Shown here piece after piece: positions 4,236 through 16,569 of a stretch of DNA of 46,128 nucleotides; position 1 is the stretch's first letter; each line of letters begins with the position of its first letter. Source of the DNA: Bacteroidota bacterium (lineage in GTDB: Bacteria > Bacteroidota > Bacteroidia > Palsa-948). The DNA lies in the NCBI GenBank assembly GCA_016195025.1, contig JACQAL010000057.1, positions 1 through 46,128 on the forward strand, read 5' to 3'. The position numbers were made by a program, and so were the translations under genes. The notes beneath the pieces were generated by a model, which saw nothing but the letters and a program-made list of their open reading frames with translations, did no database searches and was not told the origin of the DNA.

Positions 4236-4268
4236 CCTCATGTGGCAATGTTGGCCACTCATGTAATA

Positions 4269-4541
4269 GTCGCGCAGGTTGTTATAAGAGAAGCATAGGT
4301 TGTTATAATAGTCGCGCATACTATTATAAGAGTCGCGCAGGTTGTTATAAGAGAAGCGAAGATTATTCTAAGAGCAGTGAAGGTTGTTAGAAGAGAAGCA
4401 TAGGTTGTTATAATAGTCGCGCATACTATTATAAGAGTCGCGCAGATTGTTACAGCAACAGCACAGGTTGTTAAAGGAGTCGCGCAGATTGATACATGAG
4501 TAGCAGCGATTGATGCATGAGTCGCGCAGGTTGTTACAGAT
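4269..4541. repeat. 21-bp minisatellite, 13 tandem units
   Basis: Thirteen contiguous 21-bp units start at 4269, 4290, 4311 and so on, with consensus close to GTCGCGCAGGTTGTTATAAGA. The units alternate between GTCGCGCA and GAAGCATA-type heads, and a three-unit block (4290-4352) is repeated almost exactly at 4395-4457. Because the period is divisible by three, the minus strand reads as a heptapeptide repeat (N-N-L-R-D-S-Y and N-N-L-C-F-S-Y types) across nearly the whole array, interrupted by one TAG near 4369. No start, signal or domain context supports a functional protein. This may be a decayed repeat protein or a non-coding satellite. Confidence 0.9.
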
Positions 4542-4565: not shown

Positions 4566-4904
4566 TAAAGACATTTCTCCGTAGACAATTTAGCGGTTGA
4601 CGGTTGAACTTTCTGACCAAAACAAAGGACAAATACAGCGACCATTTCTCGCTTCGTGGACAGGTACGCAGGTAGCGGACAGCATTTCAAAACAACATAT
4701 AATAAGGTAGCGGGACAGTTACTTTCTCAATTAGTCATTGCACAAGCACAGACAGCATTACAATTTCTCCGCAGGACAATTTTACAAGCATGAAATAACT
4801 CCGCAAATGCAAAAGAGCCCCGATGAAGAATCTGGGCACATTTGCACTTGCTCAATCACACGAAGAAAAAAATATTAGCAACAAAAATAAATAACAATTA
4901 ACCC
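4566..4904. other. gene-free intergenic stretch
   Basis: I find no convincing frame, hairpin or RNA here. The sequence is a patchwork with recurring phrases such as CAATTT, GGACA and TTTCTCC that looks like eroded coding or repeat DNA. It ends in the AT-rich promoter region of the ECF sigma gene. Confidence 0.5.
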
Positions 4905-4931
4905 AACCATTTTTCTTATTTTAGTATCTAT
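4905..4931 (+). promoter_or_regulatory. predicted ECF-sigma promoter (AACC-N15-GTATCTAT)
   Basis: AACC at 4905-4908 and GTATCTAT at 4924-4931 are separated by exactly 15 bp. The same bipartite element with the same spacer length lies before the collagen-like gene (6947-6973). ECF sigma factors often read a -35 containing AAC and autoregulate, so this is probably the sigma factor's own promoter. The -10 box overlaps the ATG at 4930, which argues that the gene is translated from the downstream TTG. Confidence 0.55.
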
Positions 4932-4950
4932 GTTTAAAAGGAGGAATACT

Positions 4951-5511
4951 TTGTCACTTAATAGCGAAGAACAACTTATCAATGGATGCATTGAGCAAGA
5001 CACGGCATCTCAAAATAAAATATATAAATTATTTGCGCCTAAAATGTTTACAGTATGTATTCGATATTCAAGAAACAGAGAAGATGCTGAAGATACTTTG
5101 CAGGAGGGATTTATGAGAGTGTTTAATAACATAAAAAGTTTCAGGCATCAGGGATCATTTGAAGGATGGATGCGAAGAATTATAATTAATGTAGCGATAC
5201 GAAAATATAAAGACAAATCGAATTTATTTACTGTAATTAATATTGATGCGATAAATTGCGATACTTATTATGAGGAAAATACATTGAGCGAAATTAATTC
5301 GAAAGAGCTGCTTAAACTTATTCAGGAATTGCCTGAAAAATGCAAAATGGTTTTTAACTTATATGTATTTGAAGGAATGAAGCACAGCGAAATTGCTGAG
5401 TTGCTGGGTATAACGATTGGAACATCCAAATCAAATTTATTTGACGCGAGAGAAATTTTAAAACAGGAAATTGCTAAAACAGAAACTATTCAGATGACAG
5501 CTAACGCATGA
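4951..5511 (+). CDS. ECF RNA polymerase sigma factor
   Basis: Region 2 is clear: P-K-M-F-T-V-C-I-R-Y followed by D-A-E-D-T-L-Q-E-G-F-M-R-V-F and then the G-S-F-E-G-W-M-R-R-I motif. Region 4 reads E-L-P-E-K-C-K-M-V-F-N-L-Y-V-F-E-G-M-K-H-S-E-I-A-E followed by an HTH. There are no extra domains. I place the start at TTG 4951 because AAAAGGAGG (4936-4944) is a strong Shine-Dalgarno 6 nt upstream, a rarity in this phylum. The longer ATG 4930 start lies inside the predicted -10 box. The stop overlaps the next ATG by 4 bp, so translation is coupled to the barrel protein, which probably holds or signals to this sigma factor. The gene is much more AT-rich than the core genes in this window. Confidence 0.9.
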   Translation: MSLNSEEQLINGCIEQDTASQNKIYKLFAPKMFTVCIRYSRNREDAEDTLQEGFMRVFNNIKSFRHQGSFEGWMRRIIINVAIRKYKDKSNLFTVINIDAINCDTYYEENTLSEINSKELLKLIQELPEKCKMVFNLYVFEGMKHSEIAELLGITIGTSKSNLFDAREILKQEIAKTETIQMTANA

Positions 5512-6917
5512 TGGACGAAAACAACATAGACGATTTGTTCAGAGATAATGTTGAGCCGTTGAGAATAAAACCTCCTGAAAAAATTTGGAGTTCACTGGAA
5601 GCATCTTTAGAAAAAAAGAAGACAGCGGTTTATAAAAGAAGGGTATTTTATTTTCAAACACTCTCGGCTATTCTTGCTGTAGCGTTGATATTCATACTGT
5701 CATATGAGTATTTTAATGCTTCAAAAAATGTTTCTGCTAAAAGCAATGAAATAAATGAAATATCAGCGAAGAAGAATGTAATAAATACTTTAGTTGCAAC
5801 GAATGAGGATAATTCACAGAGTAATAATTTATCAGAAAATAATATTACTGTAAAGGGAAAAAAGACAAATGCGGAGATTATTCATTCTAAAGAAGTGTTT
5901 GAAAAAACAAAGTCAAAAAAATCTTTTTATGATGAAACGATAAAAAGAAATTTGGTTTCAGAAAATTCAGAAGTCAAAAAAGAAAATAATCTGGAAAGCA
6001 ATTTATCTAATGAAAAAAACATTAAGAACAATGATGCAAATGAGATTGCAAAACAAAATCAAACTGCACAAGAAAATATTATAGTGAAAAATGATTCGGT
6101 GAAAATAAATTTAGGCAAAGCAAACAAAGATTCATCAGAGAAATCGGAATTGAAACAAGAAACTGTTTCACAAAATGATTCATCTGCAAATAATACAACT
6201 GAAGGTTCAAAAACAAATCAAAATTTCTTATCTCATATCTCAATTTCTGCCTTTTTCTCACCTGAATATGTACAACATTACTTGAGCAACAGCAATTATA
6301 AAAATGATTTCAATAAAAATGAAAACCCTGATTTTTCTTATACTGCTGGAATAAAATTAGGATGCGATTTGAATAAGTATTGGACACTGCAATCGGGAGC
6401 ATTTTTTTCTTCTTTATCGCAGAATATAAAACCAACAACACTTTTTGCAAAGAACGGCTCTGACGGTTCACCACATTATATGATGCCAACATCGTATGGA
6501 ACTATTGAAGTGCCTAATTCTTCTTCGATACCGAAAGAAGGGGACACAACAGACAGCTATTCATGCAAACAAACTTTTCATTTTATTAGCATTCCTTTAT
6601 TGCTGAAGTATAAGATACAATCGGGAAAATTAAATTACTATTTATTTTCAGGAGCAACTTTCAATTTGTTGATTGCAGATAAAGTAAATATGCAACTGGA
6701 ACAAAAACATGAAACGATTCAGAACGGCACAAATGGCTTGAATAAATCAAATGCAAGCGCGATATTGGGCGCAGGCGTTCAGTATAACATAAGAAAATTT
6801 AATTTATATCTTGAACCTGCATACAGAAGGTCGGTTACTTCAATCACCAAAAGGATTTATGCGAATTCCTATCCTTATTCATTCGGGTTATCGCTGGGCA
6901 TAGGTTATCATTTTTAA
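5508..6917 (+). CDS. membrane-anchored outer-membrane barrel protein (putative anti-sigma fusion)
   Basis: The 469 residues fall into four parts. A cytoplasmic N-terminus of about 45 residues contains a D-D-L-F-R-D / P-P-E-K-I-W-S-S-L-E motif, and one transmembrane helix spans about 47-68. A low-complexity Asn/Lys/Ser/Glu-rich linker runs from about 70 to 240, and a C-terminal domain from about 243 to 469 resembles an outer-membrane beta-barrel (PorT/OmpA-like), ending in aromatic G-Y-H-F. The N-terminus resembles those found on barrel proteins directly behind ECF sigma genes in Bacteroidota, so an anti-sigma or sensing role is a reasonable inference. The linker is long enough to cross the periplasm. 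The 4-bp overlap with the sigma gene supports a shared function. No zinc-binding HxxxCxxC anti-sigma motif is visible. Confidence 0.75.
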   Translation: MMDENNIDDLFRDNVEPLRIKPPEKIWSSLEASLEKKKTAVYKRRVFYFQTLSAILAVALIFILSYEYFNASKNVSAKSNEINEISAKKNVINTLVATNEDNSQSNNLSENNITVKGKKTNAEIIHSKEVFEKTKSKKSFYDETIKRNLVSENSEVKKENNLESNLSNEKNIKNNDANEIAKQNQTAQENIIVKNDSVKINLGKANKDSSEKSELKQETVSQNDSSANNTTEGSKTNQNFLSHISISAFFSPEYVQHYLSNSNYKNDFNKNENPDFSYTAGIKLGCDLNKYWTLQSGAFFSSLSQNIKPTTLFAKNGSDGSPHYMMPTSYGTIEVPNSSSIPKEGDTTDSYSCKQTFHFISIPLLLKYKIQSGKLNYYLFSGATFNLLIADKVNMQLEQKHETIQNGTNGLNKSNASAILGAGVQYNIRKFNLYLEPAYRRSVTSITKRIYANSYPYSFGLSLGIGYHF

Positions 6918-6946
6918 GGAGCAAATAATTTTTTTTACATCTTCCC

Positions 6947-6973
6947 AACCATTTCACATTTTATTGTATCTAT
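6947..6973 (+). promoter_or_regulatory. second AACC-N15-GTATCTAT promoter, before the collagen-like gene
   Basis: AACC at 6947-6950 and GTATCTAT at 6966-6973 are 15 bp apart, like the element at 4905-4931; the flanking CCC before AACC and ATTT after it are also shared. The collagen-like lipoprotein gene starts 43 bp downstream. This makes that gene a likely target of the neighbouring ECF sigma factor. Confidence 0.6.
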
Positions 6974-7016: not shown

Positions 7017-7508
7017 ATGAAAACAAAAATCTTTCTTTCGATTTCAGCGATTGCGCTGATGTTTATTTTTTCGTGCAAAAAAGGTGACACTGGACCTGCT
7101 GGCGCTACAGGTACAGCTGGAGCAGCAGGTAATGCAAATGTGCAGACCTACACTTTCAGCGTTACAAGTGCTTCATGGGCGGCAGATACTGTTGACCAAG
7201 AATGGAGTTCAGATTATACATTGCCTTCTGCTGCAAATGTCAGCGGAGCTGTTTTATGTTATGCTCAGGATGGCAGCAATTGGTCTGCACTGCCTCATGT
7301 TGATTACGGAGTGGCATTTTCTTTTAGTTATGACCCTTCTACAAAAATCATAGAGGTAGTTGCTGCTGACGCAAAGGCTGCTTCAATGGTTCCTAATCCG
7401 GGTGCTATGACTTTCAGGGTGGTTACAATTCCTACGGCAAAAGTTAAAGCAAATCCAACACTTAATTGGAAGAGTTACGAAGAAGTAAAGACAAAATTTA
7501 ATCTTTAA
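7017..7508 (+). CDS. collagen-like-repeat lipoprotein
   Basis: This 163-residue protein has a lipoprotein signal peptide: M-K-T-K, a hydrophobic core, then F-I-F-S-C with the lipid-attachment Cys near residue 20. Directly after K-K come collagen-type G-x-x triplets (G-D-T-G-P-A-G-A-T-G-T-A-G-A-A-G-N-A), and then a domain of about 115 residues rich in beta-strands. Short collagen stubs on lipoproteins are common in Bacteroidota, and the family is uncharacterised. It probably sits on the outer membrane. Its promoter matches that of the ECF sigma gene, so it is likely part of that regulon. A 13-bp stem hairpin (7535-7581) follows the stop. Confidence 0.8.
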   Translation: MKTKIFLSISAIALMFIFSCKKGDTGPAGATGTAGAAGNANVQTYTFSVTSASWAADTVDQEWSSDYTLPSAANVSGAVLCYAQDGSNWSALPHVDYGVAFSFSYDPSTKIIEVVAADAKAASMVPNPGAMTFRVVTIPTAKVKANPTLNWKSYEEVKTKFNL

Positions 7509-8137: not shown

Positions 8138-8512
8138 ATGACAAAAGAAACATGTATCCGAGTGTATGCCGACCCTGTGCAAATCAGGGAATGCAGAAAA
8201 AAAGTCGCACAAAATGAAAAAACATTTTCTCAACTTTCAAATATTCTTGCATTAGCAGGGAGCGATGTTCGCCTGAAAATTTTATTTATGCTGGAAGAAG
8301 AAGATAAACTCTGCCCCTGCGATATTGCAGACATTCTCGGAATGACAGTTCCCGCAATATCACAGCACTTAAGAAAAATGAAAGACGGGAATATTATTGA
8401 ATCGCAAAGAACAGGGCAAACTATTTATTATTCGCTCAGGGAAGAAAATCTGAAAATCCTAAAACCATTTTTCAAACACATTACACAATCTATTAAGGAA
8501 GAAGTAGTATGA
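8138..8512 (+). CDS. ArsR/SmtB-family metal-responsive repressor
   Basis: This 124-residue winged-helix protein has D-V-R-L-K-I-L-F-M-L followed by the ArsR metal-site signature L-C-P-C-D (Cys59 and Cys61, equivalent to E-L-C-V-C-D of ArsR and CadC). The recognition helix reads T-V-P-A-I-S-Q-H-L-R-K-M-K. Two more cysteines, Cys6 and Cys19, lie in an N-terminal extension as in CadC-type sensors, which suggests a thiolate site shared between the N-terminus and the alpha-3 helix. Its stop overlaps the merTP-like start by 4 bp, so it probably controls that operon. Proteins of this kind replace MerR in many Bacteroidota mercury operons; the exact inducer cannot be read from sequence. Confidence 0.9.
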   Translation: MTKETCIRVYADPVQIRECRKKVAQNEKTFSQLSNILALAGSDVRLKILFMLEEEDKLCPCDIADILGMTVPAISQHLRKMKDGNIIESQRTGQTIYYSLREENLKILKPFFKHITQSIKEEVV

Positions 8513-9141
8513 GCGGAGAAAAAACATCAAAAGGACTTATCGGTGCTGGTATTCTTACCGCCATCGCAGCGTCTTTATGCTGTATAACTCCCGTGCTTGC
8601 ATTAATCGCAGGCAGCAGCGGGCTTGCTTCAACTTTTTCTTGGCTTGAACCCGCAAGACCTTATTTAATAGGTATAACTATTTTAGTAATTGGCTTCGCT
8701 TGGTATCAGAAATTAAAACCAAAGCCAACAGATGAATGTGGTTGCGAACCTGCCCGTCCGGCAGGCGGGGAAGATGAAAAACCAAAATTCATTCAGTCAA
8801 AAACATTTTTATCTATCGTAACAATTTTTGCAGCACTGATGATTGCCTTTCCGTATTACTCGCAACTATTTTTCCCCAACAATGAAAAACAAATAATCAT
8901 CATTGACAAATCTAATATTCAAACAGCAGAATTTACAATCAGCGGAATGAATTGTGAAGGATGTGAAGAAGAAGTAAAGCACGAAGTCAATCAACTCAAT
9001 GGAATTGTAAAAGCCGATGTATCCTATAAAAATGGAAATGCACAAATTCAATTTGATAATTCAAAAACAAATGTATCTGAAATTGAGAAAGCAATAAACT
9101 CAACAGGATATACAGTTACAAAATCAGAAATAACAAAATAA
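8509..9141 (+). CDS. merTP: mercuric transport protein MerTP (MerT-MerP fusion)
   Basis: The 210-residue product has three hydrophobic segments near 10-33, 49-66 and 98-118. The first carries the paired Cys24-Cys25 typical of MerT. A loop with C-G-C lies near 77-79. The C-terminal domain from about 138 is a heavy-metal-associated (HMA) fold with G-M-N-C-E-G-C (Cys149 and Cys152), equivalent to MerP. Such a fusion would bind Hg(II) outside and pass it to the transmembrane cysteines for import. Import normally feeds MerA reductase, but no MerA is in this window, so another thiophilic cation or an unlinked merA is possible. It is translationally coupled to arsR. Confidence 0.88.
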   Translation: MSGEKTSKGLIGAGILTAIAASLCCITPVLALIAGSSGLASTFSWLEPARPYLIGITILVIGFAWYQKLKPKPTDECGCEPARPAGGEDEKPKFIQSKTFLSIVTIFAALMIAFPYYSQLFFPNNEKQIIIIDKSNIQTAEFTISGMNCEGCEEEVKHEVNQLNGIVKADVSYKNGNAQIQFDNSKTNVSEIEKAINSTGYTVTKSEITK

Positions 9142-14129: not shown

Positions 14130-14304
14130 GCAAGTTACTACCTTCAATAATGGTCATTTTATATGGATAACATCATGCGAAAAATGCGAATGTATGCGAA
14201 CACTGCGAACAAAATGCAAAGAAAAAATTCGCGGTGTTCGCATTTGTTCGCGGCATTTGCATTATTTTATCAATTCCTATCATTCAATAGGTGGCAACTT
14301 ACAT
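14130..14304 (+). mobile_element. MITE/REPIN-like element, copy 1
   Basis: About 175 bp, almost identical to the reverse complement of 16380-16569. The ends are imperfect inverted repeats of the type AAGTTNCNACCT...AGGTGGCAACTT. Inside, GCGAACACTGCGAA faces TTCGCGGTGTTCGC (13 of 14 paired) together with several ATGCGAA/TTCGC words, so the element folds into a long hairpin. It encodes nothing credible. The structure fits a non-autonomous transposable element or a REP doublet moved by a transposase elsewhere. Confidence 0.75.
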
Positions 14305-16379: not shown

Positions 16380-16569
16380 TGTAAGTTGCCACCTATTGAA
16401 TGATAGGAATTGATAAAATAATGCAAATGCCGCGAACAAATGCGAACACCGCGAATTTTTCTTTGCATTTTGTTCGCAGTGTTCGCATACATTCGCATTT
16501 TTCGCATGATGTTATCCTCGCATGATGTTATCCATATAAATGACCATTATTGAAGGTAGCAACTTGCAT
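16380..16569 (-). mobile_element. MITE/REPIN-like element, copy 2 (inverted)
   Basis: This is the reverse complement of copy 1 over its whole length, but with a 17-bp tandem duplication (ATAACATCATGCG unit at about 16505-16535) absent from copy 1 and a few point changes. It fills most of the gap between the BamA-like gene and nadK. With copy 1 it brackets DUF6089-nadK as a 2.1-kb interval with inverted ends. The rest of the gap (16296-16379 and 16570-16612) holds no gene and has CTAATTTACT-type AT-rich sequence. Confidence 0.75.

Follow-up and report, generated by a model that had tools for sequence, protein, structure and literature searches.

To our knowledge, the direct targets and the signals of Dma-type anti-sigma factors, single proteins that link the outer membrane to transcription, are mostly unknown. 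The family reportedly received its name in a 2024 PNAS paper. In Bacteroides thetaiotaomicron, the Dma anti-sigma factors (Dma1 and Dma2) are encoded next to ECF21 sigma factors, and each protein consists of an N-terminal part, a single transmembrane helix, a long disordered tether and a C-terminal beta-barrel in the outer membrane, according to the available part of the report (PMC13088901). In a dma2 mutant, das2 and three genes of its neighbourhood were expressed 2.5 to 6.0 log2 higher, and the neighbour genes were among the strongest targets upon loss of Dma2, as given in the same partial text (PMC13088901). Autoregulated ECF sigma factors in general have a promoter of their own gene with paired -35 and -10 boxes, and promoter models of 29 ECF subgroups have been obtained on this principle; the text of that work, in its available portion, contains no mention of an ECF21 motif, and an ECF21 logo may exist in its 2013 figure (PMC3817407). 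Another described Bacteroidota motif is the ECF promoter of Flavobacterium psychrophilum SM6, for which the available text names a sigma/anti-sigma operon among the targets (PMC9723704).

The window, which is the whole stretch of 46,128 nucleotides analysed here, contains a locus of similar design. The ECF sigma gene (4951 to 5511, plus strand, with TTG 4951 as the likely start) encodes a protein with regions 2 and 4, and its matches to Pfam Sigma70_r2 and r4_2 and to TIGR02937 were above the cut-offs, whereas TIGR02985 scored 93 bits against a cut-off of 126 bits. The next open reading frame (5508 to 6917, plus strand) overlaps the sigma gene at 5508-5511 and encodes a putative Dma-type anti-sigma factor with an outer-membrane beta-barrel, a nature that was missed in the initial annotation. 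Its C-terminal part matched the outer-membrane beta-barrel family PF13568 (E 2.5e-12, residues 262-435), and the protein ends with GIGYHF. A single transmembrane segment after a short N-terminal cytoplasmic part was predicted from hydropathy only (2.35 over 19 residues, at residue 46). Residues 72-245, the putative tether, are rich in N, K, S and E, and their pLDDT was mostly below 50, in a single-sequence model that was poor throughout (mean pLDDT 39), so that the low values by themselves are no demonstration of disorder. None of the anti-sigma profile models matched the protein, and a peptide-pattern search of the genome contigs for its relatives gave 149 pattern matches and no relative. A search of 395 genomes of the class with the anti-sigma protein gave a match in 29, including the host genome, and a sigma gene was located beside the anti-sigma gene in all 30 loci compared, the window included (in L058 the sigma gene is partly covered).

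Judged from these features, the architecture is that of a sigma factor followed by an anti-sigma factor with one transmembrane helix, a putatively disordered tether and a beta-barrel, and the assignment as a Das-Dma-type pair follows from the architecture described, in the available text, for the Dma anti-sigma factors of B. thetaiotaomicron (PMC13088901). The two systems differ in that the neighbour gene in the window has its own copy of the predicted promoter and is not in the operon, and in that no vesicle phenotype is known for the window locus. Bacteroides sp. GM023, found via a 16S primer, was used as a comparison genome, and CAACC was absent upstream of both of its Das-like genes. By eye, its two Das-Dma-like pairs (L203 and L204) have in common an upstream TGCAG-N18 followed by a -10-like box. 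In L204 a lipoprotein gene comes next, which resembles the dma2 operon with BT_1557 as reported in the available text (PMC13088901).

The initial annotation had pointed out two identical bipartite elements with 15-bp spacing in the window, and this was confirmed. Exact copies of CCCAACC-N15-GTATCTAT are present at 4902-4931 and 6944-6973, both on the plus strand, and an exact scan gave no third copy in the window, as had been stated; 0 copies were expected from 100 dinucleotide shuffles of the window. In a scan of the host genome (3,505,645 bases, 79 contigs), the slightly shorter form CCAACC-N15-17-GTATCTA was detected just at the two window sites, and its reversed control gave 0. Without the leading CC, the pattern had 7 matches in this genome versus 2 for the control pattern. 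The two elements share CCCAACCATTT and GTATCTAT, and the remaining letters of the spacers differ, which argues against recent copying of a longer segment as the origin of the pair. Predicted promoter 1, the putatively autoregulatory one, is an exact match to ACCCAACC-N17-ATCTAT at 4901 to 4931 (plus strand) ahead of the sigma gene. Predicted promoter 2, an exact match to CCCAACC-N17-ATCTAT at 6944 to 6973 (plus strand), is located 26 bases beyond the stop codon of the anti-sigma gene and 43 bases ahead of the ATG of a lipoprotein gene.

The position of promoter 1 bears on the start of the sigma protein. The open reading frame is readable from ATG 4930, and this codon overlaps the end of the proposed -10 box; a transcript from promoter 1 must therefore be translated from a later start. 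Most simply, TTG 4951, behind AAAAGGAGG, would be the likelier start for such transcripts. The sequence ATGTTTAAAAGG was noticed after ATG 4930, and the same start is found behind the element in L101 (genome G361), and nearly so in L095 (genome G103). Such a recurring start might give a longer second form of the sigma factor from an upstream promoter.

Conservation of the element was analysed with relatives of the sigma factor, which was matched at 1e-42 in 126 of the 395 genomes of the class. We compared 60 sigma loci, namely a subset of the strong sigma matches together with the anti-sigma locus L154, whose sigma match is weaker. The close group consisted of 22 loci, 21 with at least 48.8% identity and L102 (45%), which was added by hand. 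The pattern CAACC-N16-18-RTCTDW was found in the 130 bp preceding the sigma start in 20 of the 60 loci, as compared with a mean of 0.05 and a maximum of 1 in shuffled sequences, and it was concentrated in the close group (15/22, versus 5/38 for the other loci). When 2.2 kb upstream was allowed, 14 of the 38 more distant loci had an element, which often stands ahead of other genes that precede the sigma gene. In three of the related loci the element is followed by a protease inhibitor gene located upstream of the sigma gene, of Kazal type in L116 and, by eye, in L124, and a serpin in L145.

The relaxed form with CAAC[CT] matched 17 of the 22 close loci. For the unmatched ones, variants were recognized by eye in L104 (CCCAACG-N17-ATCTAC), L095 (with GTCATA) and L110 (with ATCAAT); L112 has a weaker element, and L120 has none. 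Independently of the motif, CCCAAC was the 6-mer most shared among the upstream regions, in 17 of the 22 close loci. The gap from CAAC[CT] to RTCT was 17 bases in 22 cases, and every other gap from 0 to 40 occurred in at most two cases. From this peak and the shared CCCAAC, the core across the relatives is read as CAACC-N17-RTCT, and the two bases behind it are usually AT or a different combination of A, T and G. The boxes named in the initial annotation thus held up in their CAACC and (A/G)TCT parts, while the genome-specific extension of the -10 box did not belong to the core: by this alignment, the 'GT' of GTATCTAT preceding ATCTAT is peculiar to the host genome. The elements are mostly positioned 36 to 54 bases upstream of the sigma starts. 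The motif of F. psychrophilum SM6, in contrast, has a CGT box in the -10 region, and several of its targets belong to type IX secretion, as far as the available text goes (PMC9723704). No printed Bacteroidota promoter motif of the CAACC or CCCAACC form was found in the literature searched, and an earlier description is possible.

Genomes were then scanned with an independent sequence-only model, R1, which was trained on 26 sites from other genomes, chosen out of 40 hand-filtered candidates; some of its motif columns are fixed by construction through the regular expression used for choosing the sites. In each genome, 150 first-look candidates out of up to 7,684 were scored. Among the 17 matches obtained in this way in the host genome, the two window sites ranked first (E 2.3e-4) and second (E 0.014). 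The third (E 0.058) is located upstream of a gene for a SpoIIE/PP2C-like phosphatase, identified by eye, the fourth (E 0.12) and the fifth (E 0.20) upstream of genes for two different secreted proteins, and the sixth (E 0.36) upstream of a paralogous sigma gene on contig 59. The fifth and sixth also lie inside short open reading frames of 103 and 146 codons, and ranks 7 to 9 lie inside longer ones.

In 20 sigma-positive genomes, R1 detected at least 37 sites at E<=0.05, distributed over 14 of the genomes; 22 were training sites and 15 were new. The same threshold, with 150 candidates scored in each genome, gave 2 sites in 2 of 20 genomes for which the sole criterion was the absence of a sigma match at 1e-42. 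Outside open reading frames of at least 100 amino acids were 35 of the 37 sites in the sigma-positive genomes (29/30 and 6/7), versus 128 of 1200 random positions and 1 of the 2 control sites. Unlinked genes for CxxCH proteins carry the element in G088 and G254, and genes of the same kind follow the second site, downstream of the anti-sigma gene, in G304, G233 and G325.

The arrangement with a predicted second promoter is not confined to the window. In 9 of 59 loci, all of them among 21 close loci, a further element was present in the 300 bp that follow the anti-sigma gene (shuffled sequences, mean 0.33 and maximum 3); L096 is left out of this count, as the contig ends inside its anti-sigma gene. 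In L117 the second element is further out than 300 bp, L095 has an extra element divergent from the sigma promoter, and L110 (genome G315) has a variant of the second site, found by eye. The gene downstream of the second site varies from genome to genome. Ten of the proteins were scanned against Pfam and the rest were named by eye from the sequence; most appear to belong to the envelope, including Rieske lipoproteins, cupredoxins, lipoproteins and CxxCH proteins with a type IX sorting tail, and the others are a glycosyltransferase, a protein that weakly matches a receiver domain, and one without an assigned identity.

The first and second sites resemble each other within a locus. Their similarity was 0.79 within loci and 0.71 after permutation (p = 0.00025). 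This comparison covered the window together with 12 other loci, 13 in all, with pairs hand-picked among the loci with a second site, with the sites of L095 and L110 placed by eye and with a p-value that ignores kinship between the genomes. For example, CGCAACC and TCAAT occur in both sites of G315, and both sites of G088 (L109) have a gap of 16 bases.

The predicted target of promoter 2 is a lipoprotein of 163 amino acids (7017 to 7508, plus strand). It had been described as collagen-like, and we refer to it as a lipoprotein whose collagen-like stretch is short, because its match to Pfam Collagen was 13.9 bits over 16 residues, below the cut-off of 27.2 bits. In a set of 30 lipoprotein homolog loci, from which L087 (no lipoprotein match) and L035 (the window itself) were removed, none of the 28 others had a convincing element within 250 bp of the homolog. 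G315 has a homolog with 57% identity in the same gene order downstream of the anti-sigma gene, and there the second site is followed by a lipoprotein gene, then by the homolog, and then by two cupredoxin-type genes, so that the element sits one gene further upstream. The family thus occurs elsewhere without the element, and the window lipoprotein would be a local rather than a universal target.

Other features of the window were also noted. The region 8138-9141 encodes an ArsR-family regulator and, just downstream, what looks by eye like a membrane protein carrying a CxxC metal-binding-like domain; these genes are possibly a metal-response cluster. Imperfect repeats in series (GTTGTTATAAGAGAAGC, AGTCGCGCAGGTTGTTA) were seen by eye at 4250-4540, in the gap that precedes the sigma gene. 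An identical stretch of 27 bases is present at 14169-14195 and, about 2.3 kb away on the other strand, at 16487-16513, an arrangement as at the ends of mobile elements.

Given the elements with their observed rarity, position, conservation, spacing and co-variation, we consider it very probable that the locus is an envelope-sensing module of the Das-Dma type, whose sigma factor uses CAACC/RTCTAT promoters for its own operon and for the adjacent lipoprotein gene. We infer that the Dma-type protein, spanning from the cytoplasm through the tether to the beta-barrel in the outer membrane, holds the sigma factor, and that a change sensed by the barrel or the tether would release it. The freed sigma factor would recognize CAACC as the -35 box and RTCTAT as the -10 box, 17 bases apart, at both promoters. 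Transcription from promoter 1 would give positive feedback on the operon, with the co-produced anti-sigma factor as a brake, and promoter 2 would provide the local output. Autoregulation together with control of the lipoprotein, as proposed in the initial annotation, is therefore supported on sequence grounds by the element before related sigma genes, its recurrence after the anti-sigma gene, the co-variation and the detection by R1. Both elements of the proposed small regulon were found, but a size of two genes was not established, since ranks 3 to 6 also precede genes; the few weaker sites of the genome may be further targets.

An unlikely alternative is that the promoters are genuine, with a paralogous ECF sigma factor as a joint or the main user, so that the two genes would lie within a network. 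The host genome has 11 further sigma-like matches, some of them paralogs with 42-44% identity, and the paralog on contig 59 (34% identity) has CCCAACC and then GTGTATAG upstream, at the site of R1 rank 6. The -10 box of that site, however, differs from those of the window, and the element stands directly before the window sigma gene and the next gene and tracks the sigma subgroup in other genomes (17/22 close loci with the relaxed expression). It is far less probable that another DNA-binding regulator uses the element as its operator. A bipartite operator and a promoter look alike in sequence, but the element is asymmetric, has the fixed 17-base gap and the distance to the sigma starts expected of -35/-10 boxes, and follows the sigma factor in its gene neighbourhood. 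Chance resemblance or a functionless repeat can hardly account for the elements. Short matches are common in A/T-rich flanks, and the 30 window matches with three mismatches tolerated are noise (29.2 expected), but the exact form was expected 0 times by shuffling, occurs only twice in the genome and is conserved in other families.

The Das-Dma system itself is already known, and the promoter signature at the level of the class and the slot for a second promoter with varied envelope genes may be new. Das-Dma modules of this class may more generally be two-promoter cassettes, with one promoter for the sigma and anti-sigma genes and a matching one past the beta-barrel gene, in which the envelope genes are exchangeable, the promoters drift with the preference of the sigma factor and a few unlinked genes join; we hold this wider proposal, including a role in an envelope redox or metal response, only tentatively, at slightly less than an even chance. 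If it is true, these modules would serve redox or metal responses of the envelope, and their output could be exchanged. With a promoter signature by which targets are found from sequence, Dma-type regulons would become predictable in uncultured Bacteroidota, and the compact locus in the window could serve as a reporter with two promoters in tests of what the barrel senses.
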